Translations under genes and position numbers: made by a program
Notes under the pieces: model-generated
Databases searched by the model: none
What the model was told of the DNA's origin: nothing
Seen by the model: the letters and a program-made list of their open reading frames with translations, nothing else
Shown: positions 5,302 through 40,069 of the stretch, piece by piece
Position numbering within the stretch: position 1 is the stretch's first letter
How the letters are laid out: every line of letters starts with the position of its first letter
Assembly: GCA_022772735.1 (NCBI GenBank)
Contig: JALEZD010000009.1
Location: forward strand, 62,001-126,000
Length of the DNA stretch: 64,000 bases
DNA from: Erysipelotrichaceae bacterium
GTDB taxonomy: Bacteria > Bacillota_I > Bacilli_A > Erysipelotrichales > Erysipelotrichaceae
Direction of reading: 5' to 3'

Positions 5302-5367
5302 AGTCATATATTAAATTTAAGTGTATCTGACATATCGGATACTAGATATGAAGATAAAAATTTCCAT

Positions 5368-20983: not shown

Positions 20984-20992
20984 GGAGGAAAG

Positions 20993-22084: not shown

Positions 22085-22091
22085 TTAAAAG

Positions 22092-22116
22092 GCTCTATCA
22101 TTGATAGAGCTTTTTT
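22092..22116 (+). terminator. Intra-operon terminator after the binding lipoprotein gene
   Basis: GCTCTATCA (22092-22100) pairs with TGATAGAGC (22102-22110) around a tight loop and is followed by six T. It lies between the binding protein and the ATPase gene, a common way to make excess binding protein. Confidence 0.88.
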
Positions 22117-22132
22117 AGATAAGAGGGGTTAT

Positions 22133-23683
22133 ATGAGTGAAATAATTTTAAAACTTGAGAATATAACTAAAGTTTATCCAAATGGAGTTGTCGCAAATAA
22201 AAATATTAATGTTGAATTTGCAAAGGGTGAAATACATTCAATTGTTGGAGAAAATGGTGCTGGTAAAAGTACATTAATGAAGATAATTTTTGCCAATGAA
22301 AAACAAACAACTGGTAATATTTATTATAAAGGACAACTTATAAACTATAGTAGTTCTCTTGAGGCAATACATAATGGGATTGGAATGGTTTATCAACACT
22401 TTAAATTGATTCCATCTTTTACAGTTGCCCAAAATATAATATTGGGATCAGAACCTGTAAGTAACAAAATATTTTTAGATATGAAAAATAGTATATCTAA
22501 AACACAAGAAATAGCTTCAAAATATGGTTTTGATATTGATGTAAATCAGAAAGTAGAAAAACTAACTGTAAGTGCTAAACAAAAAGTAGAAATTTTAAAA
22601 ACATTATATAGGGATGCTAAGGTAATAATCTTAGATGAACCAACTGCTGTTTTAACACCACAAGAAACAGAAGCTTTATTTAATCAACTTTTAAACTTCA
22701 AAGAATTGGGATATACAATAATATTTATTTCTCATAAATTAAATGAAGTTAAACGAATAAGTGATAGAATTACAGTTATTTGTAATGGAGAAACAAAAGG
22801 GACTTTTAATGCAACAGATGTAAGTATTGATGAATTAACTGAATTAATTATTGGAAGAAAGCTAGAAAATTCTTTTGATGAACTTAGAAAAGAAGTAAAA
22901 GATGCAAAAAATGTTCTTGAAGTAAATAATTTAACATGCAAAGTTTTAGGAGTAAATAAAGTAGATAATGTAAATTTCCAAATAAAAGAGGGAGAAATTT
23001 TAGGTATTGCAGGTGTTCAAGGTAATGGACAGGAAGAGTTAATTAAAGCAATAACTGGAATGGCAAGTTCTACAAGTGGAAATGTAATTTTAAATTCTGT
23101 TGATATCACTAATATGAAAATAAAAGACAGAAGAAATAATGGATTATCATATGTGCCTGAAGATAGAATGATTGATGGTATTGCGGATAAAGCTACAATT
23201 AGTGAAAATATTATTTCTAGTTATTATGATAGAGATGATGTAAGCGGTAAGGTATTTATGAAAAATAAGAGTATTAAGGAAATATCTAAAAACCTTATTA
23301 AAAGATTTTCTATAAAAACAAAAGATGAAAATCAAAAAATTGAAAGTTTATCTGGTGGTAATATTCAAAAAGTAGTTGTAGCTAGAGAATGGAATACATC
23401 TTTCAAATTAATGGTTGCTGAACAACCAACTCGTGGTATTGATGTTGGTAGTGCAAGATACATTCATGAGCAATTAATTGAAATGAGAAATAATGGAAAA
23501 GCTATATTACTTGTTAGTGCTGATTTAAATGAAGTAATGTCTTTAAGCGATAGATTAATTGTAATGTATGATGGTAAAATTGTAGGTCATTTTAAAAACA
23601 TTAAAAATGTAAGTGAAAATGAACTTGGATTATACATGTTGGGAATTAAAAAACAAAGTGATGAGGAGTTAAAGGGGGCTTAA
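22133..23683 (+). CDS. ABC transporter ATP-binding protein, nucleoside (two fused ATPase domains)
   Basis: A 516-residue ATPase of the RbsA/NupO type with two domains. Domain 1 has Walker A VGENGAGKSTLM, signature-region LTVSAKQKVEILKTL and Walker B VIILDEPTAVLT. Domain 2 has the degenerate Walker A GVQGNGQEELI, the strong signature LSGGNIQKVVVARE and AEQPTRGIDVGS. The asymmetry is normal for this subfamily. It follows the binding lipoprotein and precedes two permease genes by one base, forming a complete importer. Confidence 0.93.
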   Translation: MSEIILKLENITKVYPNGVVANKNINVEFAKGEIHSIVGENGAGKSTLMKIIFANEKQTTGNIYYKGQLINYSSSLEAIHNGIGMVYQHFKLIPSFTVAQNIILGSEPVSNKIFLDMKNSISKTQEIASKYGFDIDVNQKVEKLTVSAKQKVEILKTLYRDAKVIILDEPTAVLTPQETEALFNQLLNFKELGYTIIFISHKLNEVKRISDRITVICNGETKGTFNATDVSIDELTELIIGRKLENSFDELRKEVKDAKNVLEVNNLTCKVLGVNKVDNVNFQIKEGEILGIAGVQGNGQEELIKAITGMASSTSGNVILNSVDITNMKIKDRRNNGLSYVPEDRMIDGIADKATISENIISSYYDRDDVSGKVFMKNKSIKEISKNLIKRFSIKTKDENQKIESLSGGNIQKVVVAREWNTSFKLMVAEQPTRGIDVGSARYIHEQLIEMRNNGKAILLVSADLNEVMSLSDRLIVMYDGKIVGHFKNIKNVSENELGLYMLGIKKQSDEELKGA

Positions 23684-23684
23684 T

Positions 23685-24773
23685 ATGAAATTTTTAAAAA
23701 ATATTAAATGGACTGATGAAAAGCCATTCTCTTTTCTTCAATTAGTTAGTTCTATTGCTGCAGCACTTTTTATCACATTATTAGTTTTATTCTTTGTTTC
23801 TGCAAATCCAATTGGAGATTTTATAAGCCTACTTACTTATCCTTTACAAGGTAAATTTTACTTTGGTTATGTTCTTGTTAAAATGGTTCCTTTAACATTT
23901 GCAGGACTAGCTACACTTTTATATTTTAAAACTGGATTTTTCAATTTAAGTACAGAAGGTATATTTTATATATGTGGAGTTGTATGTACTATTTTTGCAG
24001 TAAATACAAATTTTCAAACAGGTAACGGTTTTATTGATTCAGCAATTCCAATTTTAATTAGTGGGCTTGTTGGTGGATTAATTGCGCTTGGACCAGGACT
24101 TTTAAATGCAAAATATAAAACAGATGAATTAGTTATATCATTAATGTTAAATAGTATATTATTTGGTATAGGTTTTTATATTGTTAAAACTTTCCTTGCA
24201 GTTGAAGGTGTTTCGGGAAATGCTTCTGCACCATTTAGTGAAAGTTCAAAATTAGTTAATATAATTAGTGGTACACAAGTGCATAGTGGATTTATTTTGA
24301 TGATAATTGCAGTGGTTGCTATGTACATTCTTTTGTATAAAACAAAATTAGGTTACACAATAAGAATGGCAGGTTTTAATAAAAACTTTGCAAAATATTC
24401 AGGAATGAGTGCATTTACACTTTTAATAGCAGTTCACTTTCTTGCAGGATTTTTAGGTGGAGCAGGTAGTGCTATTGAGCTTTTAGGTATTTACAAAAGA
24501 TTTTCATGGGCAACTCTTCCGGGATTAGGGTTTACTGGGGCATTAATGGCAATGCTTGGGAAAAATCATCCTCTTGGAGTACTTGTTGCAGCATTTGGGA
24601 TTAGTTATTTAAGAGCTAGTGCACAATTATTAGCTAATAGTAATCCTGTAATAGATGTTAAGTTAATATCTGTTGTAGAAGTTATACTTACTTTATTGAT
24701 TTCTTCACAATACTTTTTAAGAGCATGGAGAAATAAGAGACTAATAAAGGAGGAAATTTCAAATGAACAATAA
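23685..24773 (+). CDS. ABC nucleoside transporter permease 1
   Basis: A 362-residue integral membrane protein of the BPD_transp_2 type with about eight to ten hydrophobic segments. Typical segments are MVPLTFAGLATLLYFKTGFF, NLSTEGIFYI and the coupling loop region around GFTGALMAMLGKNHPLGVL. The gene overlaps the second permease by 11 bases. Together with the fused ATPase and BMP lipoprotein it resembles the NupNOPQ/PnrABCDE class of nucleoside importers. Confidence 0.9.
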   Translation: MKFLKNIKWTDEKPFSFLQLVSSIAAALFITLLVLFFVSANPIGDFISLLTYPLQGKFYFGYVLVKMVPLTFAGLATLLYFKTGFFNLSTEGIFYICGVVCTIFAVNTNFQTGNGFIDSAIPILISGLVGGLIALGPGLLNAKYKTDELVISLMLNSILFGIGFYIVKTFLAVEGVSGNASAPFSESSKLVNIISGTQVHSGFILMIIAVVAMYILLYKTKLGYTIRMAGFNKNFAKYSGMSAFTLLIAVHFLAGFLGGAGSAIELLGIYKRFSWATLPGLGFTGALMAMLGKNHPLGVLVAAFGISYLRASAQLLANSNPVIDVKLISVVEVILTLLISSQYFLRAWRNKRLIKEEISNEQ

Positions 24774-25683
24774 TATTTTAAGTACATTTTTTAGTGTTAG
24801 TTTCTTATTTATTATAATAAGAGTTGGAGTACCTCTTGTTTATGCTTCATTAAGTGCTTATGTTGCAGATATCGCAGGTATTCCTAATATTGCGGTTGAA
24901 GGTTTAATGATTTTTGGAGCTCTTTTTGGGGTATACTTTAGTGCGTTATTTAATAGTTCTTGGTTAGGATTATTATGTGCTGTTATTTTAGGAGTTTTAT
25001 TTGCGCTTGTAATGTCATTTTTCACAATGAAAATGAAGGCAAATCCAATAATGGTTGGTATTGCGCTTAATCTATTCGCAAGTGATTTTAGTGTTTGGTT
25101 ATTGCTTTTATGGACTGGTTCAAAAGGAACAACTGGTAATTTGCCTTCTAAGGTATTACCAACTTGGGATATTCCATTTATAAAAGATATTCCAGTTATT
25201 GGACAAATAATATCAGGGCATTATTTTTTGACATATGTTTGTGTTTTAATTGTTATATTACTTTATATTTTAATTTACAAAACACCATTTGGACTTAGAA
25301 TGAAAGCTTGTGGATTGGATCAATCTACTGCAGAGTCTGTTGGTGTAAAAGTAAATAAAGTAAGATTAATCGCAATCATTATTTCTGCTATTCTAGCAAC
25401 ACTTGGAGGCGCATATTTATCTATGGGATATTTATCAATTTTCTCAAATAATATGACTGCTTCTCGTGGTTGGATGGGTGTTGCGGCTAGTGCTGTAGGA
25501 CAAGGAAATATGTTAATTGTTTTATTGACAACAGGATTATTCGCAATAGCACAAGGTGTTGTTAATGAATTGATTTTAACTAATTTACCAAGTGAACTTG
25601 TAAATACAATTCCATATATTTGCGTAACTATTGGATTAATTGTTCTTTCAATTAGAAAATATAACAAAGAAAAAAGAGGTTAA
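24763..25683 (+). CDS. ABC nucleoside transporter permease 2
   Basis: A 306-residue permease with eight or so hydrophobic segments, including IPNIAVEGLMIFGALFGVYF, MKANPIMVGIALNLFA and YLSIFSNNMTASRGWMGVAA, all usual in the second permease of BMP-dependent importers. AAAGGAGG before the ATG lies within the end of permease 1. The third nucleoside hydrolase starts one base after its stop, so import and cleavage are directly coupled. Confidence 0.9.
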   Translation: MNNNILSTFFSVSFLFIIIRVGVPLVYASLSAYVADIAGIPNIAVEGLMIFGALFGVYFSALFNSSWLGLLCAVILGVLFALVMSFFTMKMKANPIMVGIALNLFASDFSVWLLLLWTGSKGTTGNLPSKVLPTWDIPFIKDIPVIGQIISGHYFLTYVCVLIVILLYILIYKTPFGLRMKACGLDQSTAESVGVKVNKVRLIAIIISAILATLGGAYLSMGYLSIFSNNMTASRGWMGVAASAVGQGNMLIVLLTTGLFAIAQGVVNELILTNLPSELVNTIPYICVTIGLIVLSIRKYNKEKRG

Positions 25684-25684
25684 A

Positions 25685-26605
25685 GTGAGAAATATAATAT
25701 TTGATTGTGATCCTGGTCATGATGACATTATGGCAATATTTGCAGCACTTGCAAATCCTGAAGAATTTAATATTTTAGGTTTTACAACTGTTTGTGGAAA
25801 TCAAACAAGTGATAAAGTTACTAAAAACTTGTGTAGAGTATTATCTTATTTAGATAAGGATTATGTAGTTGTTGAAGGTGAGAAAAAACCACTTATCTAT
25901 AATCCGGAACCTCAACCATTAGCACATGGAGAAAGTGGACTTGATGGACCAATATTGCTTGATGGTAAAATTAGAAATAAAAATATTAATTATCTTGAGT
26001 TTCTTGAAAGTTGTTTATCTACAAAAACTACAATTATGGCTTTAGGACCACTTACAAATATTGCAAAACTTATTAGTGAAAAACCACATGTTATACCTAA
26101 CATTGAACAAATTGTAATAATGGGAGGCTCTATATATGGTGGCAATATTCTTGAAAAGTCAGAGTTTAATATATATGCTGATCCACATGCAGCGAAGATT
26201 GTATTTGATTCAGGTTTAGATATTGTACTTGCACCACTTGAAGTTTGTGATTATTGTAGTCTAAAGCATAATGTTATTGATCCATTTAAATCAAAAGGGT
26301 ATGTAAGTAATTTAACCTATGAAATTTTAGAGTTTTTTTCTAGATATTCTAAGGAAAGAAATAAAGATAAATCACCTATATTTGATTTAGCATGTACGAT
26401 GTATCTATTACATAAGGAAGCATTTGTTGGTAAAAACGCTTATGTAGATGTTGTACTAGAAGGTGAAAATAGAGGACAAACTATTATTAATTATTCAAGT
26501 GATGGAAATGTACTCGTGCTTGAAAGTGCAAACAATGAATTTTTACAAACAAAATTTATTGAGTATATTAATAGATTAGATTTAGAGTATAAAAATAATA
26601 GATAA
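25685..26605 (+). CDS. Ribonucleoside hydrolase (third nucleoside hydrolase)
   Basis: A 306-residue protein starting with GTG at 25685 behind AAAGAGG; longer in-frame starts inside the permease gene are rejected because they lack a ribosome binding site. The metal motif IIFDCDPGHDDIMAI has the DCDPGHDD form typical of RihA/RihB/RihC-type enzymes, followed by ALGPLTNIAKL, IVIMGGSIYGGN and EFNIYADPHAAKIV. The pyrimidine- or purine-type specificity is not decided by visible residues. It ends the ABC-transporter operon. Confidence 0.9.
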   Translation: MRNIIFDCDPGHDDIMAIFAALANPEEFNILGFTTVCGNQTSDKVTKNLCRVLSYLDKDYVVVEGEKKPLIYNPEPQPLAHGESGLDGPILLDGKIRNKNINYLEFLESCLSTKTTIMALGPLTNIAKLISEKPHVIPNIEQIVIMGGSIYGGNILEKSEFNIYADPHAAKIVFDSGLDIVLAPLEVCDYCSLKHNVIDPFKSKGYVSNLTYEILEFFSRYSKERNKDKSPIFDLACTMYLLHKEAFVGKNAYVDVVLEGENRGQTIINYSSDGNVLVLESANNEFLQTKFIEYINRLDLEYKNNR

Positions 26606-27128
26606 TATATAGCTAGTTAAATAGAGATGTATTGTTATTAGATAATGAGTATTTCTATATATTTTTATAAAATTGTGAAAATGGAATAGTAAAATAGGAC
26701 AATGCCAACTAGTGTGGATAAATAAAAAGCGAGTTTACAGTTAATATGACTAAAAATTCGTTTTTTTATGTGGTACATTAGAAATGATTTTATTTTAAAA
26801 GTACATCACTAAAAGAAGATTTATAACTATTACAAATATAACGATGTATTTCAAGATATACACGAGACTCTTTAAATGAATCATTAGGTAGATGAATATT
26901 CCTTTTATGATATTCAGTAGATTTAAATTGTTGTTCATAATAAAGATAATCGTCCTTTGTATGAACATGGAGCACCTGTTTTTATTATACAAAGAAAAAT
27001 TTTATTTTTTCAATGTCAGCTGGTATAGATGTTCTCATCCACACTAGTTGGTATTATTATTAAAATCTTTATGGTTATTTATTTCATTTTTTATTGTTTT
27101 CTAGTCTTTGTTTTTTTAACCTACAAAC
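26606..27128. other. Intergenic accessory DNA with an inverted-repeat element
   Basis: More than 500 bases without a convincing gene. They contain the 347-bp inverted-repeat element annotated separately, and a short minus-strand frame at 26790-26975 that I do not recognise and that may be a fragment of a lost protein. The remainder (26606-26704 and 27052-27128) is AT-rich with no clear signal. Confidence 0.6.
26705..27051. mobile_element. 347-bp element bounded by perfect 15-bp inverted repeats (MITE-like or IS remnant)
   Basis: CCAACTAGTGTGGAT (26705-26719) is inverted perfectly as ATCCACACTAGTTGG (27037-27051), and similarity extends a few bases beyond (19 of 21). The core CCAANTAGTGTGGA is the same motif found several times at the ends of the ISL3-family element at 55-56.6 kb. 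This suggests a small non-autonomous relative or a deleted copy. No transposase frame is present inside, and no clear target-site duplication is seen. Confidence 0.65.
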
Positions 27129-27162
27129 AAAAAAAGGCAATTTGCCCGTAGGGGTGCCTTTT
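27129..27162 (-). terminator. Terminator of the endolysin-holin operon
   Basis: Read on the minus strand, AAAAGGCA (27162-27155) pairs with TGCCTTTT (27139-27132), with a T-rich run following. It lies directly after the holin-like gene's stop codon. Confidence 0.75.
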
Positions 27163-27345
27163 CTATGTTATTTCTTTTTTTGTAGTACGATCTGTAAAAT
27201 AAAATGTCAATATCATGGTTACCATTGGTACAAATTCCTGTGATGATATTTTTCCTACAAACCATCCATATATTAATGCGAATACCATAACTAATGTAAC
27301 TATCGTTCTTACTTGTAAGAATTCTTTTAAATATATTTTCATCAT
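27163..27345 (-). CDS. Small holin-like membrane protein
   Basis: A 60-residue protein (two adjacent ATG codons; AGAGGAC upstream) with two hydrophobic segments (about residues 12-28 and 38-50) and a charged KKE tail. Its pattern, LQVRTIVTLVMVFALIYGWFVGKISSQEF then a FYF segment, is like small putative holins encoded beside endolysins in Firmicutes phages. It lies 64 bases downstream of the intact amidase on the same strand and is followed by a terminator. Holins make the membrane holes that release cytoplasmic endolysin. The assignment rests on size, topology and position. Confidence 0.6.
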   Translation of the reverse strand: MMKIYLKEFLQVRTIVTLVMVFALIYGWFVGKISSQEFVPMVTMILTFYFTDRTTKKEIT

Positions 27346-27409
27346 TTTATACGTCCTCTCTTTCTTATTTTTTGTGTTTTGCCTAGGAGCATAATAATGA
27401 AATATATTT

Positions 27410-27901
27410 TTATAATTGATTTAATTCATTAGAAATTATATCTAAGAATCTTTGCCAACCCATATCTAATGTTCTATGAGGACAGTATTTACCACTATAA
27501 TCTTGGTGTTTTGTAACTTTAGAAATATCCCAATTTCTTTCTTTTAATAACTCAGCAATTAGTTTAGCTGCATTTTGTTCGGCTTTAATAAATTTATGTA
27601 AGTCTTTATCTAATTTACTATAACAAATTTCAATTGATATTCCTTCTCTATTTCCTTTTCCTAATACACCATCTCCGGCGTTCCAAGTATTTCTATTTAA
27701 TGGTATTCCCTGTATTATTTCTTTATCATCTACTGCAAAGTGATATGAAACTTTATTATTGTTAGAAATCATATAATTTCTTTCTGAACTGGCTGAAGCA
27801 CTATTTGCAGTGTTATGCACCACTATTCTAGTAGGATTCATTAGATAAGGGCACTTTATACTATATTTACTAGGATACACCAATCGTTTTATAATATTCA
27901 T
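27410..27901 (-). CDS. N-acetylmuramoyl-L-alanine amidase (phage endolysin type), array unit 1, intact
   Basis: A 163-residue amidase_2/PGRP-family enzyme that cuts the lactyl-amide bond of peptidoglycan. The zinc ligands are visible as H29 (VVHNTA), H132 (KHQD) and C140 (KYCPHRT), with the catalytic lysine just before. It has no signal peptide, so it needs a holin or lysis for release; a holin-like gene follows on the same strand. The SH3 wall-binding repeats seen in the decayed copies of the array are absent here. AAAGGAG lies 13 bases from the ATG, a long spacing. It is transcribed divergently from the anchored protein at 28010 through a conserved palindrome-rich region. Confidence 0.85.
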   Translation of the reverse strand: MNIIKRLVYPSKYSIKCPYLMNPTRIVVHNTANSASASSERNYMISNNNKVSYHFAVDDKEIIQGIPLNRNTWNAGDGVLGKGNREGISIEICYSKLDKDLHKFIKAEQNAAKLIAELLKERNWDISKVTKHQDYSGKYCPHRTLDMGWQRFLDIISNELNQL

Positions 27902-28009
27902 ATCGTTTTCTATACTCCTTTCTTATATTTGGTTTGTATCGATACAATACTATTATCAAATACTTTGATTTGTTAGAAAACGACATGTTTTATTTAGGAG
28001 TATAAATTT
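27902..28009. promoter_or_regulatory. Palindrome-rich divergent control region, array copy 1
   Basis: Three nested palindromes lie between the divergent genes. TCGTTTTCTA (27903-27912) is inverted as TAGAAAACGA (27974-27983) and forms the outer pair. TTGTATCGATACAA (27934-27947) is a perfect palindrome, and ATCAAATACTTTGAT (27955-27969) is a perfect spaced palindrome. The same arrangement recurs at 29176-29280 and, damaged, at 29919 and 31395. Conservation of the palindromes across copies suggests a dedicated regulator. Confidence 0.7.
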
Positions 28010-28618
28010 ATGAAAAAAGTTGTATTTATTCTTATTGTTACAGTTATATTGTTTATATGTATTATTTTTTATGAGTATGAAAAAAATAAATATAATCCTT
28101 ATTCAAATTTTTCAAATTTTTCTACATATAAATATAAATGTAAGGATGATTTTACTGAATGTAAAGTATATACTTTTTATGATCAGTCTATCTATTTTGA
28201 AAAAAATCATTATACAACAAAAACAGAATTAATACCTTTTAACTCAGAAAATCTTTTTATAAAAAATCAAAAAGATTTTATATTAAAAACCTCTTATGAT
28301 GAAAAAATAATAGTAGAACAATTAAAATTTGAATATGATAAAAATTTAAATGGAACATATATATTTAATGATGAAACATATATATTTAATAATGGTTGTT
28401 ATTTAAGTAGTAATTTTGAAAATTATAAAAAATGCAATTTTATAGCACAAATGGATGAAAATATAATTGTATTAGATAATGCAATAATTTCTGAAATACC
28501 TATTTATGAATATAAATTTGATGACAATAATAACTTAATATTAAGTCCCGTTTACTATATGGAAAATTATATAGGACTAAAAAGAAAAATAACTTATAAA
28601 CTAAAAAGACAGAATTAA
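28010..28618 (+). CDS. Membrane-anchored extracellular protein, family A (array unit 1)
   Basis: A 202-residue protein that I do not recognise. Residues 5-24 form an uncleaved signal anchor, and the rest is hydrophilic and rich in Tyr, Asn and Lys, expected outside the membrane. Conserved features shared with its paralogue at 31518 are a YKCxxxxxECKxY cysteine pair, NLNGTYxxNDExYxFNNGC, IISEIPIYEYxFD and a C-terminal LKRQN. Four extracellular cysteines could form two disulfides. AGGAG lies 9 bases before the ATG. It is divergent from the intact amidase and convergent with the unit-2 endolysin remnant, with a perfect hairpin between. Confidence 0.75.
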   Translation: MKKVVFILIVTVILFICIIFYEYEKNKYNPYSNFSNFSTYKYKCKDDFTECKVYTFYDQSIYFEKNHYTTKTELIPFNSENLFIKNQKDFILKTSYDEKIIVEQLKFEYDKNLNGTYIFNDETYIFNNGCYLSSNFENYKKCNFIAQMDENIIVLDNAIISEIPIYEYKFDDNNNLILSPVYYMENYIGLKRKITYKLKRQN

Positions 28619-28632
28619 CCTGTCTTTTTAGT
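28600..28632. terminator. Bidirectional terminator between family A gene and unit-2 endolysin remnant
   Basis: ACTAAAAAGACAG (28600-28612) pairs perfectly over 13 bp with CTGTCTTTTTAGT (28620-28632). T runs on both strands allow it to stop both converging transcripts. The family A stop codon lies in the loop. Confidence 0.88.
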
Positions 28633-29175
28633 TTAATCGTTAGTAGGATACATTACAGCAGGGTCATGTTGAAAGTAACCATATACTCCATTATAAACTC
28701 CATAACACCATTGATAGCCATCTGATTGAACACTTTTTAAAAACTCTAATACTTTTATCTCAGAGCCATTAGGGGCAGTTATATTAACTTTTCCATTTAC
28801 AACACTAGTTCGTAATCTAGCTGCAGAACCAGTTAATTTCATTTTATAATTTCCTGAAGGTTTTCCTTCAATTATCATAATTCTCGGATCAAATTTAAAT
28901 GCTCCTTCAATTCCGTATCTCTTACCCCAAGCCCATCTATATCCATCTCCATCTTTCCAAGTATTTCTATCTAATGGTATTCATTGTATTATTTCTTTAT
29001 CATCTACTGCAAAGTGATATGAAACTTTATTATTGTTGGAAATCATATAATTTATTTCTGAACTTGCGGATACACTATTTGCAGTGTTATGTACAACTAT
29101 TCTGGTTGGTTTCATATTATATGGACACTTTATATAATATTTACCAGAATCTATGAATCGTTTTATAATATTCAT
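28633..29175 (-). pseudogene. Decayed amidase-SH3 endolysin, array unit 2
   Basis: One minus-strand frame runs from the amidase N terminus (MNIIKRFIDSGKYYIKCPYN, then VVHNTANS) to an SH3-like C terminus ending in DPAVMYPTND. It is broken by an in-frame TGA at 28983-28981, where the intact copy has GGG/GGA. About 75 residues of the amidase core, including the second histidine and the cysteine, are missing: the sequence jumps from RNTWKDGDG straight into an SH3-repeat end (GYRWAWGKRYG). The junction falls at a GDGY/SDGY-like microhomology. One complete and one partial SH3-like repeat remain, showing that the ancestral endolysin had at least two. Confidence 0.8.
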
Positions 29176-29280
29176 ATCGCTTTCTATACTCATTTCTTGT
29201 ATTTGGTTTGCATCGATACAACACCATTATCAAATACTTTGATTTGTTAGAAAACGACATGTTGTATTTAGGAGATATCT
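29176..29280. promoter_or_regulatory. Palindrome-rich divergent control region, array copy 2
   Basis: Copy of the control region at 27902. TCGCTTTCTA (29177-29186) with TAGAAAACGA (29248-29257), TTGCATCGATACAA (29208-29221, one mismatched pair), and a perfect ATCAAATACTTTGAT (29229-29243). Spacing is the same as in copy 1 even though the genes on either side differ or are broken. Confidence 0.65.
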
Positions 29281-29790
29281 ATGAAAAAAATTTTTTTATT
29301 TTTTATACCTGTAATATTAATTTTTTCTTGGTTATATTTTGATTATTTTAGATACAAAATTATTATTAATAAAAAAATGGGGAAACACTTTGCTATTGAT
29401 GTAGAAAATCAATGCTATATTAATTATGAGTATCAATGTAAAAATTTGGAATGTACAACCAAAGAAGGAGATGATTTTCCTTATTTTAATGCGTATTTTA
29501 TTAATTTGTTTGATGCTGTGAAATATGCAGAAAATAATTATAAAAAGTTTTATAATGAAATTCCAATACATTTGAAAAATAAGTATAACGACACATTTAA
29601 TAAAGTTTATTTAATTAATTCAATATGTAAAAAAAATTATGATGAACATATTTATGGATATGCAGTAACATTTGGAGGTTTTAACTTATATAATTTTTAT
29701 AATGAATATAAAGAATATAATATAGGGAAAGTAAAGTTATATACTTTTAAAGAGGTATTTAAAGATTTAAAAAACAAAAGCCATAAATAA
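29281..29790 (+). CDS. Membrane-anchored extracellular protein, family B (array unit 2)
   Basis: A 169-residue protein of unknown function. Residues 3-19 are a hydrophobic signal anchor (IFLFFIPVILIFSWLYF), and the rest is charged and aromatic. Four cysteines (CYINYEYQC, ECTTK, ICKKN) suggest extracellular disulfides. It does not resemble family A beyond size, topology and cysteine content, yet it occupies the same position behind the same control region. A decayed copy lies at 30773-31206. TTTAGGAG precedes the ATG and a long hairpin terminator follows. Confidence 0.7.
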   Translation: MKKIFLFFIPVILIFSWLYFDYFRYKIIINKKMGKHFAIDVENQCYINYEYQCKNLECTTKEGDDFPYFNAYFINLFDAVKYAENNYKKFYNEIPIHLKNKYNDTFNKVYLINSICKKNYDEHIYGYAVTFGGFNLYNFYNEYKEYNIGKVKLYTFKEVFKDLKNKSHK

Positions 29791-29807
29791 TATGGTTTTT
29801 GTTTTTT
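29769..29807. terminator. Terminator between family B gene and unit-3 SH3 remnant
   Basis: A 17-bp stem (29769-29785 with 29791-29807, one G-T pair) with T runs on both sides can serve both converging transcripts. Confidence 0.85.
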
Positions 29808-29917
29808 TTAGTCATTAGTAGGATACATTACCGCAGGATCATATTGAAAATATCCTCTTGTTCCATTATATTCACCATAACACCATTGATAACCATCTGA
29901 TTGAATACTTTTCAAAC
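29808..29917 (-). pseudogene. Endolysin SH3 C-terminal remnant, array unit 3
   Basis: Only the last 36 or so codons survive, reading SDGYQWCYGEYNG and ending DPAVMYPTND, nearly identical to the unit-2 end. The amidase part is deleted, and the sequence runs directly into a truncated copy of the control region at 29918. Confidence 0.75.
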
Positions 29918-29993
29918 ATTATCAAATATTTTGAATCGTAAGAAAACAACATGTTTTGTAGTATAATTAATCCAAATAATAGGAGTTTTTTTT
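29918..29993. promoter_or_regulatory. Truncated control region, array copy 3
   Basis: ATCAAATATTTTGA (29921-29934) and AGAAAACAACATG (29941 onward) match the right half of copies 1 and 2; the left half with the TATCGATA palindrome and the amidase start is deleted. A TATAAT follows at 29962-29967, and AGGAG precedes the lipoprotein ATG at 29994. Confidence 0.55.
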
Positions 29994-30596
29994 ATGAAAA
30001 CAATATTTTTATTATTAACATTTTTTATAATATTATCAGGATGTAAAAACGATGAAATAAAACAGAAAATTAATGATAATTCAGTACATATAAAAAATGA
30101 AACAGTTAAAGAATATTCAAGTGATAGTGAAACAACAATAATTCCTTTAGGTATTTTTCAGCATAATGATCCAGCTTTGATAGAAAACTATAAAAAAAAA
30201 TTTATCAATCATTTTATCTATATGCCTTCATCTATTTCAATTTCTACAGGGAAAAATATGGAATTAAAAAGAATATTTTTTAGCTATGAAACTGAATTGC
30301 TTTTTACGGATGAAGAATGGGAAGAATTTGTTAAACTACAAGAAAATCCAAAATCACATGGAACATTGTATTCTGCTGATTTAGTAAAGCTTAATAAAAA
30401 TGTTTATTCAGCTTCAAACTCACTTACAACTCCATCATTAAAGAGAAAATATATCCCTATAAATGATAAAATCGATTTTTATTTAATCATTTTAGAGGAT
30501 AAATATTATGTTGTTTTTGAAGAAATTGATATTAACAACTTAAAATTTTTAGAACAAGTCCCATGGATGGAAGTTCAAATAATAGAAAAAGCATAG
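29994..30596 (+). CDS. Lipoprotein of unknown function (array unit 3)
   Basis: A 200-residue lipoprotein: the signal peptide ends in the lipobox ILSGC with the lipid cysteine at residue 17, followed by an acidic, lysine-rich linker and a mixed alpha/beta domain that I do not recognise. It occupies the same slot behind the same control repeat as the family A and B proteins but is unrelated to them in sequence. Its outer-membrane-leaflet position suits an inhibitor or immunity function against a wall hydrolase, but nothing in the sequence proves that. AGGAG lies 8 bases before the ATG. Confidence 0.75.
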   Translation: MKTIFLLLTFFIILSGCKNDEIKQKINDNSVHIKNETVKEYSSDSETTIIPLGIFQHNDPALIENYKKKFINHFIYMPSSISISTGKNMELKRIFFSYETELLFTDEEWEEFVKLQENPKSHGTLYSADLVKLNKNVYSASNSLTTPSLKRKYIPINDKIDFYLIILEDKYYVVFEEIDINNLKFLEQVPWMEVQIIEKA

Positions 30597-30613
30597 ATGA
30601 TTTCTATGCTTTT
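30587..30613. terminator. Terminator between unit-3 lipoprotein and unit-4 SH3 remnant
   Basis: AAAAGCATAGA (30587-30597) pairs with TCTATGCTTTT (30603-30613). T runs on both strands allow it to act in both directions. Confidence 0.8.
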
Positions 30614-30730
30614 AATCATTTGTTGGATACATTACATTAGGATCATATTGAAAATAACCTTCATAATTTCCAAATTTCCCACGACACCATTGGTATCAAT
30701 CTGATTGAATACTTTTTCAAAACTCTATTA
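30612..30730 (-). pseudogene. Endolysin SH3 C-terminal remnant, array unit 4
   Basis: About 38 codons resemble the SH3 end of units 2 and 3 (YQWCRGKFGNYEGYFQYD then PNVMYPTND), but with an in-frame TGA where the others have GGT, and with no amidase part. Confidence 0.7.
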
Positions 30731-30772
30731 TTTTTTGTTATATAGTATGACTTATTTTATAGTGAGGAAAGC

Positions 30773-31206
30773 GTGAAAAAATATGTTTATTTTTTATACC
30801 TGTAATATTAATTTTTTCTTGGTTATATTTTGATTATTTCAGATACAAAATTATTTTTAATAAAAAAATGGGGAAATTTGTTATTGATGTATAAAATCAA
30901 TGTTATATTAACTATGAGTACTAACGTGAGTATTTAAAATGTACGATTGATACAGTTAGTTTACTTATTTTAATGCGTATTTTACTAATTTGTTTGATGT
31001 TGTAAAATATGCAGAAAATAATTACAAAAAGTTTTATAATGAAATTCCAATACATTTGAAAAATAAGTATAATGACACATTTAATAAAGTTTATTTAATT
31101 AATTCAATATTTAAAAAACTGTGATGAACATATTTGTGGATATGCAGTAACATTTGGAGAATTTAACTTATACAGTTTTTATAATGAATATAAAGACTTA
31201 CTATAA
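30773..31206 (+). pseudogene. Decayed copy of the family B anchored protein, array unit 4
   Basis: From a GTG at 30773 the DNA follows the gene at 29281 closely (for example the IPVILIFSWLYFDYF segment and the NNYKKFYNEIPIHLKNKYND segment). Several small deletions and stop codons break the frame, and the C terminus is lost after NEYK. The Shine-Dalgarno is GAGGAAAG. The control region upstream is barely recognisable. Confidence 0.8.
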
Positions 31207-31212
31207 AATTAA

Positions 31213-31255
31213 AAGGATTAACTACTGTACAATACAGAAATCAATCCTTATTTTA
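31213..31255 (+). terminator. Possible hairpin after the family B pseudogene
   Basis: AAGGATT (31213-31219) pairs with AATCCTT (31243-31249), with an inner CTGT/ACAG stem and a short T run. Weak. Confidence 0.4.
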
Positions 31256-31299
31256 TCATCCAACTTATTGGGTTCACTTTGTTTTATGTATTTTTATTT

Positions 31300-31394
31300 A
31301 ACGGTATTATGTACAACTATTCTGGTTGGTTCATATTATAATGACACTTTATATAATATTTACCAGAATCTATGAATTGTTTTATAATATTCAT
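31300..31394 (-). pseudogene. Endolysin amidase N-terminal remnant, array unit 5
   Basis: The first 25 or so codons of the amidase (MNIIKQFIDSGKYYIKC) are present from the ATG at 31394. A one-base deletion then shifts the frame, before the VVHNTA zinc motif. No SH3 part follows. Confidence 0.7.
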
Positions 31395-31517
31395 ATCGTT
31401 TTCTATACTTCTTTCTTATATTTGGTTAATACTATTATCAAATACTTTGAATTGTTAGAAAACGACATGATTAATAAATTTTTATTTACTATTTATTATA
31501 TTAATTTGAGGTATTTT
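31395..31517. promoter_or_regulatory. Divergent control region, array copy 5
   Basis: TCGTTTTCTA (31396-31405) and TAGAAAACGA (31456-31465) are kept exactly, and ATCAAATACTTTGA (31437-31450) is almost perfect. The TATCGATA palindrome is deleted, shortening the region. About 45 extra bases separate it from the next ATG. Confidence 0.6.
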
Positions 31518-32120
31518 ATGAAAAAGCTAATTTTTATTCTAATAATAATTATATCTGTATTCATTTTTTATAATATATATTATTACTTTAATCCTACAGA
31601 TAGACCTATTTTAAATTATTCTACTTTTGAATATAAATGTTCAAAAAATCAGTATGAATGTAAAATATATATATTAAATAGTCTTCAAGATATATATGTA
31701 TATAGTTATAAAGATAACAATTCAATTGAACGAAAATTTGGCACTGGTTTTTTTGTTAGTGATAAAAATATGTTTTATAAAAATAAAATAAAATTATATG
31801 ATGGCAATATTCTGATAAAAAAATTACAATTTAATTATGATCAAAATTTAAATGGAACTTATAAATATAACGATGAAATATATACATTTAATAATGGATG
31901 TATTACTTCCACCAATACTTTATCATCTCCACGTCCATGTACTTCTGTTTGGCAAATGGATAACAATATTTTTTCTATAATAGAACCAATAATATCGGAA
32001 ATTCCTATTTATGAGTATGAATTTGATAGTGAAAAAAATTTAATTTTGTACCCTCTAGCATCAAATTATATGTATATGGATAAAAGATTAAGCTATACAT
32101 TAAAAAGACAGAATTATTGA
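31518..32120 (+). CDS. Membrane-anchored extracellular protein, family A paralogue (array unit 5)
   Basis: The ATG at 31518 has TTGAGG 7 bases upstream and begins MKKLIFILIIIISVF, a signal anchor; upstream codons in the same frame come from the control region and are not coding. The product is 200 residues and is clearly paralogous to the protein at 28010: shared YKC...ECKIY, LNGTYKYNDEIYTFNNGC, ISEIPIYEYEFD and LKRQN. An extra CTS/PC cysteine replaces KKC. The pair brackets the array, suggesting tandem duplication of a unit. Function unknown. Confidence 0.75.
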   Translation: MKKLIFILIIIISVFIFYNIYYYFNPTDRPILNYSTFEYKCSKNQYECKIYILNSLQDIYVYSYKDNNSIERKFGTGFFVSDKNMFYKNKIKLYDGNILIKKLQFNYDQNLNGTYKYNDEIYTFNNGCITSTNTLSSPRPCTSVWQMDNNIFSIIEPIISEIPIYEYEFDSEKNLILYPLASNYMYMDKRLSYTLKRQNY

Positions 32121-32138
32121 TATATACGAAAAAATCTT

Positions 32139-32164
32139 AAACATATAGGAAAGTGTATGTTTTT
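32139..32164 (+). terminator. Probable terminator at the right end of the array
   Basis: AAACATA (32139-32145) pairs with TATGTTT (32156-32162), with T residues to 32164. The rest of 32165-32317 is AT-rich with nothing I can name. Confidence 0.5.
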
Positions 32165-32317
32165 GTGAGAAATACGGTATATTAAATGCTATATTACAAA
32201 GTAGTAACGTGTAAAGTCACAAAGTGTTTTAGAAATAATGATAAAAAATTCATAAATTTATAAAATGAATTTAAATGTAATAATCTTTCACCAACACCAA
32301 AGTTTAATAATATATTT

Positions 32318-32905
32318 CTATATATCAAAATTTTTTAAAATAAATGAGTTACCATCATATTCAATTTCATGTATTGAATTATTATGAATACTTTTATATT
32401 TTGAATATTCAGGATTAGTTTTAATAATTTCTCTTGATGGTATAAGATTTTCTAGTTGCAGAAATAATCTAATACAACCACCATGACTTACAACTGCAAT
32501 TGTTTCATCTTTATGTTTTAAATAACATTCTTTGAAGAAATTTTTTACACGATTAAAAACTTCAACTTCTGTTTCAACACCTTCATCTTTATTATTTTTT
32601 ATTGCTTCAAAATATTCATCAAATGAAAATCCTTCTAAATTCCCAAAGGCTCTTTCTTTTACTCTTTCATCAATTTTTATTTCAATATCTTTAAAGTTTG
32701 AACCTTCCAACATCAATTTACAAGTTTGTATTGCTCTAGAAAGAGGGCTAGCATATGCATGGGCAATATTAAATTTATTAAGCTTAATACCACTTTCTTT
32801 TGAAGTTTTAATGCCTGTATTATTTAAAGGAATATCCGTAGTTCCTTGTATTTTGTGATTTTTATTCCAATCAGTTTCACCATGTCTAATAAATAATATT
32901 TTCAT
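32318..32905 (-). CDS. Histidine phosphatase family protein (phosphoglycerate mutase-like)
   Basis: A 195-residue cytoplasmic phosphatase. The catalytic RHGET motif is at residues 7-11 (ILFIRHGETDWN), and the other conserved elements are SPLSRAIQTC, the acidic ERAFGNLEG and VVSHGGCIRL with the second histidine. The ATG at 32905 is chosen because AAAGGAG lies 7 bases upstream; ten further codons upstream have no such site. Likely a general sugar- or nucleotide-phosphate phosphatase; true mutase activity is unlikely at this length. Confidence 0.85.
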   Translation of the reverse strand: MKILFIRHGETDWNKNHKIQGTTDIPLNNTGIKTSKESGIKLNKFNIAHAYASPLSRAIQTCKLMLEGSNFKDIEIKIDERVKERAFGNLEGFSFDEYFEAIKNNKDEGVETEVEVFNRVKNFFKECYLKHKDETIAVVSHGGCIRLFLQLENLIPSREIIKTNPEYSKYKSIHNNSIHEIEYDGNSFILKNFDI

Positions 32906-32966
32906 AAAATCTCCTTTAGATAGATACTTTATCAAAAATACGAATGATTGTATAGTTAAATGAAAT

Positions 32967-33722
32967 TTATTTTTTGTAGTTTTTAGGAGTACATTTATAT
33001 TTATCTTTAAATACCTTATAAAAGTGATTTACATCATCATATCCAACTTCTTTGGATATAGTTTTAATTGAAAAATTTGTTTCACTAATATATTTTATTG
33101 CTTTTTCAAGTCTTATTTCTTTTAACATATCCTTAAAAGAAGTCTTCATGTATTTTTTAAAAAATTTTGAAAAATAGGCAGGGTGATATCCAAATGTTTT
33201 TGCGACTTCTTCTAATGTAATGTGTTTAGAGTTTTCATCAATATATTTTATAATTGAGCCTAATAAATGCTCTTTTAGCATTGATGATTCAATTTTTGAA
33301 AGTAAAGTTGTATGTTCTTTACCCAATTTTGCAAAAATAATATTTAGTAAATTTAGTATTATAAATTCTTCATCATTTTTAAAAGTTATTTCTATTAATT
33401 CTTGAATTTCTTTAGAATTAGACGTTTTGAAATATAGATATTCAGGACTTTTAGAATTTAAACTAAAAAAATCATATATTATCGGATAATTAGTAAAATT
33501 TTGCAAAAAATATTTTTTACAAAACTCATTTTTAAAACTATACAATTTTGCATCAATGTTAACTATTTCAATTTTTGGAGTTTTATATGTAAAAATAATA
33601 TCGTATTTTTTAGGATATATCATATCATTTCCGATTTTAAAGGCAGATGGGCTTGTCACTATTAAAAATTTATAATCAAAACTATCTAAATAAGAATCAG
33701 TATTAAATTCATTTATTATCAT
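32967..33722 (-). CDS. AraC-family transcriptional regulator
   Basis: A 251-residue regulator with an unrecognised N-terminal sensing domain (about 1-150) and a C-terminal double helix-turn-helix (about 155-251): ITLEEVAKTFGYHPAYFSKFFKK, then the second helix pair ending in DDVNHFYKVFKDKYKCTPKNYK, the typical AraC signature. It is divergent from the flavoreductase lipoprotein gene at 33828 with about 105 bases between, so it is the likely regulator of that gene. AGGTGA precedes the ATG. Confidence 0.88.
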   Translation of the reverse strand: MIINEFNTDSYLDSFDYKFLIVTSPSAFKIGNDMIYPKKYDIIFTYKTPKIEIVNIDAKLYSFKNEFCKKYFLQNFTNYPIIYDFFSLNSKSPEYLYFKTSNSKEIQELIEITFKNDEEFIILNLLNIIFAKLGKEHTTLLSKIESSMLKEHLLGSIIKYIDENSKHITLEEVAKTFGYHPAYFSKFFKKYMKTSFKDMLKEIRLEKAIKYISETNFSIKTISKEVGYDDVNHFYKVFKDKYKCTPKNYKK

Positions 33723-33827
33723 ATATTCACCTAAAATGTTAAAAAAACCATGTTAAATATACCAATAATACCTAATTTTGTAAACAAAAAAGGTATGATA
33801 AACTGTTCACATAATGGAGGGAAAGAT

Positions 33828-35684
33828 ATGAAAGGAATAAAAAAGATAGCTTCTATTATGTTTGTTTTTTTACTTTTAGCATCTGGATGCAGTAGTAAAA
33901 GTAATAGCGTTAGTGGAACATTCAGTGGAAGTTATAAAGGTTTTAGTGGAGATGTAAAGGCAGAAGTTGTATTAGAAAATTCAAAAATAAAATCAATTAC
34001 AACTGATGTAAGTAGTGAAACACCAATAATTGGGCAGGTTGCTGGACCACAAATGGCTGAAAAAATTGTTGAAGCACAAAGTATTGCGGTTGATACAATG
34101 GCAGGAGCAACAATAACTACAACAGCTGTAAAAGAGGCTGTAAAATTAGCACTTGAAAGTGCGAAAGTTAATTTAGCTGACTTTAGTAAGGAAGTTAGTA
34201 TTAATAGTGAATCAAAAGAAATTGAAGCAGATGTAGTAGTAGTTGGAACAGGTGGTGCAGGAACAGCATCAGCGCTTGTTGCAGCACAAGCTGGTAAAAA
34301 AGTTGTTGTGATTGAAAAAAACTCATTTGTAGGTGGTAATACCAAAATATCTCATGGTTTTTTTGCGATAGGAACTAAATGGCAAAAAGAAGCAGGAATA
34401 GATGTAAATGTTGATGAAGCTGTTAGACAATTATTAGAATTCAATGACTATTTATCTAATGGTCCTTTAACTCGAGCAATTGTTGAAAAATCAGCAGAAA
34501 CAGTAGAATGGATTGATTCATTAGGTATGAAAGTAAGTGTTCAAGAAGGCACTACTCAATTTGCACATGAGGGAGATAACTATAAAGCACAATCTTACCA
34601 TATTTATGACAATACAGAAGAAGGTTTCTCTAATTTATATAAAGAATTAGAAAACTTAGGAGTTGAAGTATATCTTCAAACAACTATGGAATCTTTAATA
34701 TTTGAAAACGGTGAAGTTAAAGGTGTTATTGCAAAGGCAAGTGATGGCTCAACATTAAAAGTTAATGCAAAGGCTACAATGGTTGCGACTGGTGGATACG
34801 GTGGAAATGAAGAAATGATTAAAGCCGTAAGCAATAATGCAAAATTAAATTTACTAGGTGTTCCAAATATGGGTGAGGGTTTAAATTCTATGATTGCAGT
34901 TGGTGCAACAGACATTGATTCTGCACCATTATTACATGCAGCAGAACTTGCAGCATCAGAAGTTACAACTTCAACATCTGATGAACATTTGGCAGGATAT
35001 TCAATGAGTCCAATTACACAATTATTAATGTCACCGCTTTTATGGGTTGATCCATCTGGGTCAAGATTTGTTAATGAAGATGTTGTTTATGATACTGCTT
35101 TTTGGGCAAATGCTGCATATTCAGTTGGAGGACAATATTATTTTGTTGTAGATAAAGCAACACTTGAAGCGTATACAAAAGGAAGTGAAATGTTGATTTC
35201 TGAGTCTGGTCCAGGTGCAAATATGGATAGTGGAGATTTTATTGCATTAGCTGAACAAGCTGTAGAAGCAAAAACTGCATTTAAAGGAGAAACAATTGAA
35301 GAATTAGCACAAAATGCAGGAATGGAAGTAGCTGATTTAGTTAATAGTGTTGAAAGATATAATAAAATGGTAGAAAATAAAAAAGATACTGATTATGCTA
35401 AATCTAGTAAATCATTAATGTATCCTGTTTCAGAAGGACCTTATTATGCATTTGATTGTAGAGCTGTATTCTTAGGTACAATTGGTGGAGTTAGAGTCAG
35501 TGAAAAACTTGAAGTTATTAATCAAGATGGTGAAGTAATAAAAGGGTTATACACTGGTGGTACAAATGCAGGAGGTTATTATCATGGAGAAGGTTACCCT
35601 CCATATGAAGGTTTAGCTTCTGGATTTACATGGACTTCAGGTAAAATTGCAGGAGAATCAATTGTTAAATATTTAGGTGAGTAG
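33828..35684 (+). CDS. FMN-binding, FAD-dependent reductase lipoprotein (flavoreductase 1)
   Basis: A 618-residue exported lipoprotein (lipobox LLASGC). An FMN-binding domain (about 30-115) has the covalent flavinylation motif DTMAGATITT. It is followed by a fumarate-reductase-type FAD domain with the dinucleotide motif VVVGTGGAGTASAL and the ADP-ribose glutamate in VIEKN. Such proteins accept electrons from the membrane through flavinylated carriers and reduce small organic acids outside the cell. The Frd-type HTMGG and ANRLGG motifs are absent; the C-terminal motif is GEGYPPYEGLASG, so fumarate is not the likely substrate. The ATG at 33828 has GGAGGG upstream. The divergent AraC gene is the likely regulator. 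Confidence 0.87.
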   Translation: MKGIKKIASIMFVFLLLASGCSSKSNSVSGTFSGSYKGFSGDVKAEVVLENSKIKSITTDVSSETPIIGQVAGPQMAEKIVEAQSIAVDTMAGATITTTAVKEAVKLALESAKVNLADFSKEVSINSESKEIEADVVVVGTGGAGTASALVAAQAGKKVVVIEKNSFVGGNTKISHGFFAIGTKWQKEAGIDVNVDEAVRQLLEFNDYLSNGPLTRAIVEKSAETVEWIDSLGMKVSVQEGTTQFAHEGDNYKAQSYHIYDNTEEGFSNLYKELENLGVEVYLQTTMESLIFENGEVKGVIAKASDGSTLKVNAKATMVATGGYGGNEEMIKAVSNNAKLNLLGVPNMGEGLNSMIAVGATDIDSAPLLHAAELAASEVTTSTSDEHLAGYSMSPITQLLMSPLLWVDPSGSRFVNEDVVYDTAFWANAAYSVGGQYYFVVDKATLEAYTKGSEMLISESGPGANMDSGDFIALAEQAVEAKTAFKGETIEELAQNAGMEVADLVNSVERYNKMVENKKDTDYAKSSKSLMYPVSEGPYYAFDCRAVFLGTIGGVRVSEKLEVINQDGEVIKGLYTGGTNAGGYYHGEGYPPYEGLASGFTWTSGKIAGESIVKYLGE

Positions 35685-35721
35685 TTTAATTAATTATATT
35701 TGTGTCTAGAAAGGATAATTC

Positions 35722-36189
35722 ATGGAGTATATTGAAATTATTAAAGAAAAAGATATACACGATTTACTTGAAATTGTTAAGGTGATTTGGAAAGAAGTAT
35801 TTACACCTATTATCGGAGAATCTCAAGTTAAATATATGCTTGAAACATATCAGTCTTTTGAAAATATAAAAGAAGAAATATCTGATGGGCATAAATATTT
35901 TATTTTAAAAGATAAAAACAGAACTATTGGTTATACAGCATATAAAGAATTTGAAGATAAAATTTATTTAAGTAAAATATACTTTTTTAAATCTGAAAGA
36001 GGTAAAGGTTATTTTAATCAAATATTAGATTATTACAATAAATTTAATAAAACAATTTATTTGAATGTAAATAAGAAAAATGAATTAGCTATTAAAGTTT
36101 ACCAAAGTAAAGGATTTAAAATTGTTAATGAACGATGTGTTGATATAAAAAATGGTTATTTTATGGATGACTACATATTAGAAAAATAA
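35722..36189 (+). CDS. GNAT-family N-acetyltransferase
   Basis: A 155-residue acetyltransferase. The acetyl-CoA loop is visible as SERGKGYFNQIL (motif A, normally RGxGxG), followed by LNVNKKNELAIKVYQSKGFKIV, the usual motif B ending. The glycine pattern is slightly reduced. AAAGGA precedes the ATG, 38 bases after the flavoreductase stop. Its acceptor (amine, antibiotic or ribosomal protein) cannot be judged. Confidence 0.82.
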   Translation: MEYIEIIKEKDIHDLLEIVKVIWKEVFTPIIGESQVKYMLETYQSFENIKEEISDGHKYFILKDKNRTIGYTAYKEFEDKIYLSKIYFFKSERGKGYFNQILDYYNKFNKTIYLNVNKKNELAIKVYQSKGFKIVNERCVDIKNGYFMDDYILEK

Positions 36190-36201
36190 ACAAATATAAA
36201 G

Positions 36202-36244
36202 CAGAGTAATTGATATAGAATATATATTTATAGCTCTGTTTTTT
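36202..36244 (+). terminator. Terminator repeat copy 1 (left side of the PTS cassette)
   Basis: CAGAG...CTCTG stem with an AT-rich inner helix and a T run. These 43 bases are identical to 40062-40104, on the other side of the PTS-GH4-RpiR cassette. Confidence 0.75.
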
Positions 36245-36250
36245 TATTTT

Positions 36251-36300
36251 GGTTTCAACAAATGGACTTTGGTCCTAAAGGGTTTCAAAACATTGTAACC
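36251..36300. promoter_or_regulatory. Candidate RpiR operator region of the PTS operon
   Basis: GGTTTCAA occurs twice as a direct repeat (36251-36258 and 36281-36288), 30 bp or about three helical turns apart, with the palindrome GGACTTTGGTCC (36264-36275) between. TTGTAACCGCTT (36293-36304) resembles half of a cre site. The region lies immediately upstream of the PTS gene. Confidence 0.5.
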
Positions 36301-36353
36301 GCTTTATTTTGATGATAGTCTTTTTTCAGATATATCTAATTAGGGAGGAAAAA

Positions 36354-37892: not shown

Positions 37893-37895
37893 TAA

Positions 37896-39233
<1,338 letters not shown>

Positions 39234-39280
39234 ATAATGATATTATTATAGTTGTCCATTAATTGATATGAGGTGATTTG

Positions 39281-40069
39281 ATGCAGTTTACTGATTTAAT
39301 CAATGAACATTATGAGGAACTAAATGACTCTGAGATTTTTATGTGTAAAAAAGTCTTGGAAAATTTAGAAATTATTCCTAGTTTAAGTACCGTTGATTTT
39401 GCAAAGTTGTGTATGTCATCAAAATCTTCAGTAATTAGATTTTCGCAGAAATTAGGTTTCACAGGTTTTTCAGAATTAAGAAACTTTCTAAAGTGGCATG
39501 ATAAAGTGTCCATCTTGGATGAAGAGATAACATTTAAAAAACAAGCTATTGAAGACATTGAAAGACTTATTGAAATATTAAAAAGTACAGATTATAGTCT
39601 CATTTATAATGAACTTGACAAAGTTAATCAAATATATGTAATAACAACAGGGGTTACACAAAAAAATCAAGCTTATGAGCTACAGAGATTATTTTTGCTT
39701 ATAGGTAAACCCCTCCAAATTATTTTGGGCGATGGACAATCAAACGAATTTAGACGAATACTTGAAAGAATATCAGAAAAAGATGCAGTATTTGTATTAT
39801 CTTTGTCAGGTGAAAATAATAAACTTGAGGCAATTATTAACAGATTAAAATTAACTTCATGTAAGATAGTCTCTATAACAAGCTTACAGAATAATTGGTT
39901 ATCAAATAAATCTGATTTCAATTTATATGCAACAACAAGTAGAAGTCCAATACCAAAAGATTGGTGGCTACAAACTGCATCATCATTTTTTGTGTTAATT
40001 GAGGCGTTTGTATTTGGGTATGTTGACTATTTAAGAAATAATAAAATATCTAAACAAGAAACAGAGTAA
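39281..40069 (+). CDS. RpiR-family transcriptional regulator
   Basis: A 263-residue regulator with an N-terminal helix-turn-helix (TVDFAKLCMSSKSSVIRFSQ, then KLGFTGFSELRNFL) and a C-terminal sugar-phosphate isomerase (SIS) domain that senses sugar phosphates (VITTGVTQKNQAYELQR, VFVLSLSGEN). The ATG at 39281 is preferred to a TTG one codon earlier, because GAGGTGA is better spaced. It follows the GH4 gene by 47 bases and probably controls the PTS cassette through the GGTTTCAA repeats. Confidence 0.88.
   Translation: MQFTDLINEHYEELNDSEIFMCKKVLENLEIIPSLSTVDFAKLCMSSKSSVIRFSQKLGFTGFSELRNFLKWHDKVSILDEEITFKKQAIEDIERLIEILKSTDYSLIYNELDKVNQIYVITTGVTQKNQAYELQRLFLLIGKPLQIILGDGQSNEFRRILERISEKDAVFVLSLSGENNKLEAIINRLKLTSCKIVSITSLQNNWLSNKSDFNLYATTSRSPIPKDWWLQTASSFFVLIEAFVFGYVDYLRNNKISKQETE

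Follow-up and report, generated by a model that had tools for sequence, protein, structure and literature searches.

The stretch analyzed here (the window) comprises 64,000 nucleotides, positions 62001–126000 of contig 3 in the genome of an Erysipelotrichaceae bacterium (1.79 Mb in 27 contigs). Between window positions 27129 and 32164 it carries an array of five units. Repeat analysis showed that each unit consists of an endolysin piece on the minus strand and a gene for a small exported protein on the plus strand, and that a shared control region is kept, at least partly, in four of the five. From left to right, the order is holin and amidase, control region, family A gene; broken amidase-SH3 fusion, control region, family B gene; SH3 tail, half control region, family C gene; SH3 tail, decayed family B gene; and amidase stub, control region, family A gene. 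An earlier note on this DNA had described a tandem array of five units. This is borne out by the DNA repeats (units 1 and 2, for example, are 88% identical over 300 nt), and the block is larger than that note described.

The same note had placed a conserved control region in every unit. Such a region is present in unit 1 (27902–28009), in unit 2 (29176–29280, 93% identical to unit 1) and in unit 5 (31395–31517). Unit 3, however, has only the small-gene half (29912–29993), and unit 4 has none. A comparison of repeats and elements showed that the palindrome of the control region is deleted in unit 5 and lost in unit 3. The repeated part extends over 48 nt and was found at 27946, 29220, 29912 and 31428. 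Terminators had also been proposed between converging units. Terminator-like sites were indeed more frequent than in shuffled sequences (5 observed vs. 0.7 expected), but they were clear at only two of the four junctions: between units 1 and 2 (28597–28635, a hairpin with a 17-pair stem) and between units 3 and 4 (30587–30613, from the hairpin scan).

The unit 1 endolysin, P0001, is a protein of 163 amino acids (aa) encoded at 27410–27901 on the minus strand, with an intact Amidase_2 domain (PF01510, E = 2.2e-19; phrog_3088 amidase, E = 9e-70). When it was aligned with solved prophage LambdaBa02-type amidases, the catalytic positions H29, E, H, K and C were found to be kept. It had been taken for an intact amidase-SH3 protein; the enzyme is intact, but the protein stops after its catalytic domain (end at 27410) and has no SH3 or other C-terminal wall-binding domain. 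The SH3-type part is confined to the decayed units 2–4. Directly after the amidase, on the same strand, lies a gene that was missing from the earlier list for unit 1. It encodes a membrane protein of 60 aa, P0007 (27163–27345), which matches phrog_13256, a family of unknown function (E = 6.5e-12). P0007 is 48% identical to the small membrane protein right after the amidase in a prophage of Anaerorhabdus furcosa, where the order amidase, then small membrane protein, closes the tail-lysis region, and its relatives on two viral contigs adjoin other lysis genes. Because of this order and these relatives, P0007 is called here a holin-type protein, a name given by genomic context (small membrane protein in a lysis module). 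A second copy of the holin gene elsewhere in the genome encodes a protein 92% identical to P0007, and the ratio of non-synonymous to synonymous substitution rates (dN/dS) between the two copies is 0.14, on few changes, which points to purifying selection. The amidase and the holin are phage-type, and as enzymes the lysins are typical representatives of established families.

The endolysin side of units 2–5 is decayed, much as the earlier note described it. In unit 2 (28633–29175, minus strand), residues 1–88 of the amidase are 77% identical to P0001 and are followed by a single TGA (28981–28983), beyond which the SH3 part is still in frame; the SH3-type tail was thus once fused to the amidase. 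Units 3 and 4 keep only the SH3 tail on the minus strand, at 29802–29931 (79% DNA identity; 86% over 35 aa), where it abuts the remaining control half, and at 30606–30735 (72% DNA identity; 65% over 40 aa). The corresponding tail repeats lie at 28627, 29802 and 30606. Unit 5 retains an N-terminal amidase stub (31304–31394, minus strand), which shares DNA repeats of 93–96% identity with unit 2. The dN/dS of the amidase N-terminal parts is 0.21.

On the plus strand, four of the five small genes are open, as had been reported. They encode two small anchored proteins of family A, with an N-terminal membrane helix and a predicted beta-rich body (P0002, 202 aa, 28010–28618; P0005, 200 aa, 31518–32120; 40–45% identical to each other), one small anchored protein of family B with no convincing relative elsewhere (P0003, 169 aa, 29281–29790), and one lipoprotein of family C with the lipobox LSGC (P0004, 200 aa, 29994–30596). 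The fifth gene, at 30773–31200, is a broken family B copy with several stops, in DNA blocks 82–96% identical, and no control region precedes it. A signal anchor or lipobox could be read in every small-protein translation, and export is predicted. No similarity beyond the signal peptide was found between A and B, or between either of them and C. The three families are therefore unrelated inside the window, as the earlier note had claimed; a further family, D, lies outside it and may be distantly related to C. The suggestive evidence is a profile score of 25.1 for the mature domains of C and D, against a best score of 17.2 in 30 column shuffles. A full-length relation of C and D at 97% probability was discounted, because it was partly due to the signal peptide.

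No convincing match to the small proteins was found in Pfam, PHROGs, NCBIfam or PADLOC, none matched a known immunity family, and the PADLOC anti-phage defence models gave nothing at E 0.05. Searches with profiles of solved structures yielded no real match for A or C. The structural models were not used: that of family A had a predicted local distance difference test (pLDDT) score of 44 and was of low confidence except for helix 2–27, and that of family C (pLDDT 59.5) had no fold match in the PDB at E 0.001. Relatives of family C occur in several other Erysipelotrichaceae genera, and family A has one relative, in Holdemania; in the contexts read, these genes lie in ordinary chromosomal settings with no adjoining lysin. 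Weak matches of P0002, P0003 and A3 (a third family A protein, described below) in other genera were not counted as relatives, and neither were most matches of the D profile, which covered only the signal peptide and linker. In one genome (G112), the family C domain occurs twice in tandem in one protein (L220), and another protein (L219) carries it together with an additional region of unknown type at the C-terminus. In a further genus (G025), a tandem series of three lipoproteins (L226, 1397–3985) has a common leader, a shared KKIDETKDWVY motif and different bodies. This trio converges on a secreted amidase gene (4086–5387); it is a lipoprotein series beside an amidase, and its families differ from those of the array.

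The open reading frames at 20000–40000, the island excepted, look like host metabolic or regulatory genes, and no other phage genes were seen in the island or its flanks. Adjoining the array on the left (26704–27056) is an element of about 350 bp that resembles a miniature inverted-repeat transposable element and is bounded on either side by a terminal inverted repeat (CCAACTAGTGTGGAT); no second copy was found in the window or in the compared loci. An Rfam search of the region gave no match up to E 1.

These observations bear on the possibility that the small proteins are superinfection-exclusion or lysogenic-conversion genes of successive prophages, each unit being the remnant of one prophage's lysis end. 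Surface lipoproteins are a common form of exclusion protein, the amidase and holin are phage-type, and the unit boundaries coincide with lysis genes. A chain of prophage remnants would account for the lysis genes. It would not account for the lack of other phage genes in the island and flanks, nor for the lack of any viral or phage relative of the small proteins, whose families were not found in the phage or viral collections searched (family C also not in plasmids). Moreover, the upstream opposite-strand reading frames that we read in phage amidase loci did not resemble them. We consider this origin unlikely.

The control region has two distinguishable parts. In unit 1, a palindrome (TTGTATCGATACAA, 27934–27947) is followed by an element (GAAAACGACATGTTT, 27976–27990) that marks the small-gene side. 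The palindrome core TGTATCGATACA is kept at 11–12 of 12 positions wherever a copy faces the start of a lysin or holin gene, which is the case for five copies (unit 1, unit 2, those at D1 and on contig 6, and that of the sister species G001). The other four (units 3 and 5, A3 and D2), which have either no lysin side or a short stub of one, keep at most 9 of 12 positions. The element GAAAACGACATGTTT is retained before small genes, and its pattern GAAAACRACATGTTT has five exact matches in the 1.79 Mb, every one preceding a small-protein gene. Because the palindrome tracks the survival of the lysin side and GAAAACGACATGTTT tracks the small genes, this distribution suggests that the palindrome may act as an operator on the lysin side, and GAAAACGACATGTTT as a promoter or leader element on that of the small genes.

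We searched the genome itself with the control region and found matches with E-values from 2e-177 to 3e-7: the four array copies, two copies within about the first kilobase of contig 3, one 13 kb into that contig, and a weaker one on contig 6. A control-like match with one mismatch at window position 7289 was rejected, being inside the coding stretch of another gene and having no wider similarity to the control region. An 18-base control-like pattern gave four matches in viral contigs, which is about the number estimated by chance, and these also had no wider similarity.

At the start of contig 3 (960–1036), the control region separates the lipoprotein gene D1 on the minus strand from the second holin copy on the plus strand. 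Another lipoprotein gene, D2, lies at the end of contig 6, and the last 36 bases upstream of it are identical to the start of contig 3. The two contigs are probably joined, and D2, D1 and the holin would then form a second tandem. Between D1 (L008, 273–923) and D2 (L132, 11080–11775), the first ~250 nt are 96–100% identical, the body is 60–88% identical with a 50-nt island of 98%, and there is no homology past the stop codon. The near-identical part spans the end of the control region, the leader and the linker. This conserved leader and diverged body make the pair a mosaic of recombination, and it looks like the product of gene conversion behind a fixed leader. Remnants of an M23 lysin tail beside D2, suspected by eye, were not supported by tblastn.

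Farther up contig 6, a degenerate control copy (74% identical) stands ahead of a lysin of 607 aa, in which Pfam identifies a NAGPA domain; the N-terminal part of this protein is M23-like, as judged from weak profile matches and an HIH motif. Just upstream of both, at L132 8383–8577, is a gene for a protein of 64 aa that contains sigma-70 region 4 only and weakly matches a positive control sigma-like factor; it is a candidate regulator. At 13126 of contig 3, the control region precedes the third family A gene, A3, with no lysin. The arrangement also recurs in the sister species, where the control region lies between a D-like lipoprotein gene and a holin gene carrying one stop codon. At L131 10147–12225, that pair adjoins a serine-recombinase-like gene and a gene pair that by eye resembles AbiEii/AbiEi.

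The earlier note had pointed out that the small genes are kept and the lysin side is lost. This asymmetry is real, and it reaches the other loci of the genome and the sister species. Small genes are open in eight of nine places (the five array units, D1, D2, A3 and G001). On the lysin side, for which the contig 6 lysin was added to the count, the only open genes are those of unit 1, the holin beside D1 and the contig 6 lysin itself.

Such a pattern could be neutral debris: a phage lysis cassette next to an unrelated surface gene would have gone through repeated rounds of tandem duplication and decay, and the open small genes would simply be the younger copies. The heavy decay and the AT-rich sequence agree with this, and family B has one broken copy already. 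However, between the two species the control region is much better conserved than synonymous sites are: it aligns at 67 of 82 bases (the local score is 73, and none of 500 dinucleotide shuffles scored above 32), while about 57% of the holin synonymous sites differ. In addition, dN/dS is 0.43–0.46 for D1/D2 and A1/A2 (0.43 for D1/D2), and an identical layout is found at separate loci. Neutral debris is therefore a very unlikely explanation of the whole.

The earlier note had interpreted the small proteins as spare antidotes against the cognate amidase. In this reading they would be externally anchored immunity or inhibitor factors that shield the cell or its siblings from freed endolysin, and the array would be a store of orphan antidotes. 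The divergent adjacency to lysins and a holin in several places speaks for it, as do the retention of small genes while lysins decay and the likeness to TelC/TipC of an exported, anchored, paralogous series of about 200 aa (PMC6193138). However, no constant pairing of one effector with one immunity family was found. The same enzyme would be expected to keep the same antidote family, yet near-identical endolysin pieces sit beside the unrelated families A, B and C, and D has only a holin beside it, a hydrolase being absent from that promoter; the antidote reading is weakened by this. There was also no match to any immunity family. The note had further held that homologues mainly in phage virion or unrelated contexts would speak against its idea. 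This is partly the case: relatives of C and the lone relative of A do occur in lysin-free chromosomal contexts. No relative was found in the phage collections searched. We regard lysin immunity as doubtful, and for the small proteins we think a broader function in the envelope or at the surface more probable than cognate immunity.

The explanation we favour, to which we would give an even chance, is that the copies of a lysis cassette of prophage type, whose promoter is divergent, have come to serve as sites from which interchangeable surface proteins are expressed. A cassette consisting of an amidase or M23-like lysin, plus a holin, would lie on the Erysipelotrichaceae chromosome at one side of a divergent promoter region, and the opposite side would express a small exported protein, either a lipoprotein or one anchored in the membrane. 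Recombination between homologous lysin and control repeats would then give tandem duplicates of the block, both in the window and where contigs 6 and 3 meet. The duplicated blocks would serve as spare expression sites, where exchange or diversification of the small gene could take place immediately after the control region and leader, and their redundant lysin side would be lost. The DNA itself shows the architecture, the recurrence of that architecture at several loci and in the sister species, the one-sided decay and the D1/D2 mosaic; that both sides are co-regulated and expressed, and what the small proteins do, we infer. This copying of a lysis cassette agrees with the restriction of control copies to these loci, with the divergent pairs of lipoprotein and holin at D1 and in G001, and with the control copy before the M23-like lysin. 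It also agrees with the phage-type amidase-holin order in A. furcosa and with the absence of the small proteins from the searched phage and viral collections.

Several points weigh against it. The join of contigs 6 and 3 depends on a single 36-base overlap. The M23-like lysin was not found in the phage collections searched, so a phage origin of that member is presumed. The solitary A3 shows that the control region can occur without any lysin, and duplication and decay could be neutral. A bolder form, which we think quite unlikely, would place phage-derived lysins or a holin, together with interchangeable surface proteins, on one divergent switch, so that a minority of cells lyses, surface-protected sisters survive, and recombination behind an unchanging control region and leader diversifies the protectants.

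Stand-alone phage lysis genes occur in many bacteria, often for no obvious purpose. At several loci of this genome and in a sister species, a conserved two-way control region links a lysis cassette to surface proteins that change from place to place. If both sides switch together, this would connect programmed lysis to the protection or variation of the cell surface in Erysipelotrichaceae in a concrete way that can be tested; if they do not, it is still a clear case of a phage-type cassette whose control region has been reused as an expression site.

Among known systems, the PlyL or prophage LambdaBa02-type Amidase_2 endolysins are like P0001 in their near full-length alignment (2l47/1yb0) and catalytic residues, but P0001 has no C-terminal wall-binding domain, lies outside a prophage and has its control region in common with a surface-protein gene. 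The lysis module of the A. furcosa prophage has the same order of amidase and holin-type gene, with the 48% identical holin, and the C-terminal part of its amidase has a QSDGxQxC motif, as in the SH3 tails of the window. Unlike the array, it follows tail genes in one strand direction, with no divergent small protein and no control region. Stand-alone chromosomal lysis modules, such as DLP12 in E. coli and the holin-like TcdE in C. difficile, also keep phage-type lysis genes outside a working prophage; we know of none that forms tandem arrays in which the lysis genes diverge from genes for exchangeable surface proteins. TelC/TipC offers a parallel on the other side: these immunity proteins of ~200 aa have an N-terminal membrane anchor, an outside domain and paralogues in series (PMC6193138). 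The small proteins of the array are alike in size, predicted anchoring and paralogous series, but no sequence relation, LXG or type VII secretion system toxin, or constant pairing with one toxin was found in the array. In the orphan-immunity islets of polymorphic toxin systems, the effector side is decayed and the small genes are retained. The array is alike in both respects and differs in that its retained genes come from unrelated families and there is no polymorphic toxin. As a whole, the layout departs in its pairing from the TipC-like wall-zone immunity series that it resembles on one side, and on the other it resembles the stand-alone lysis modules.

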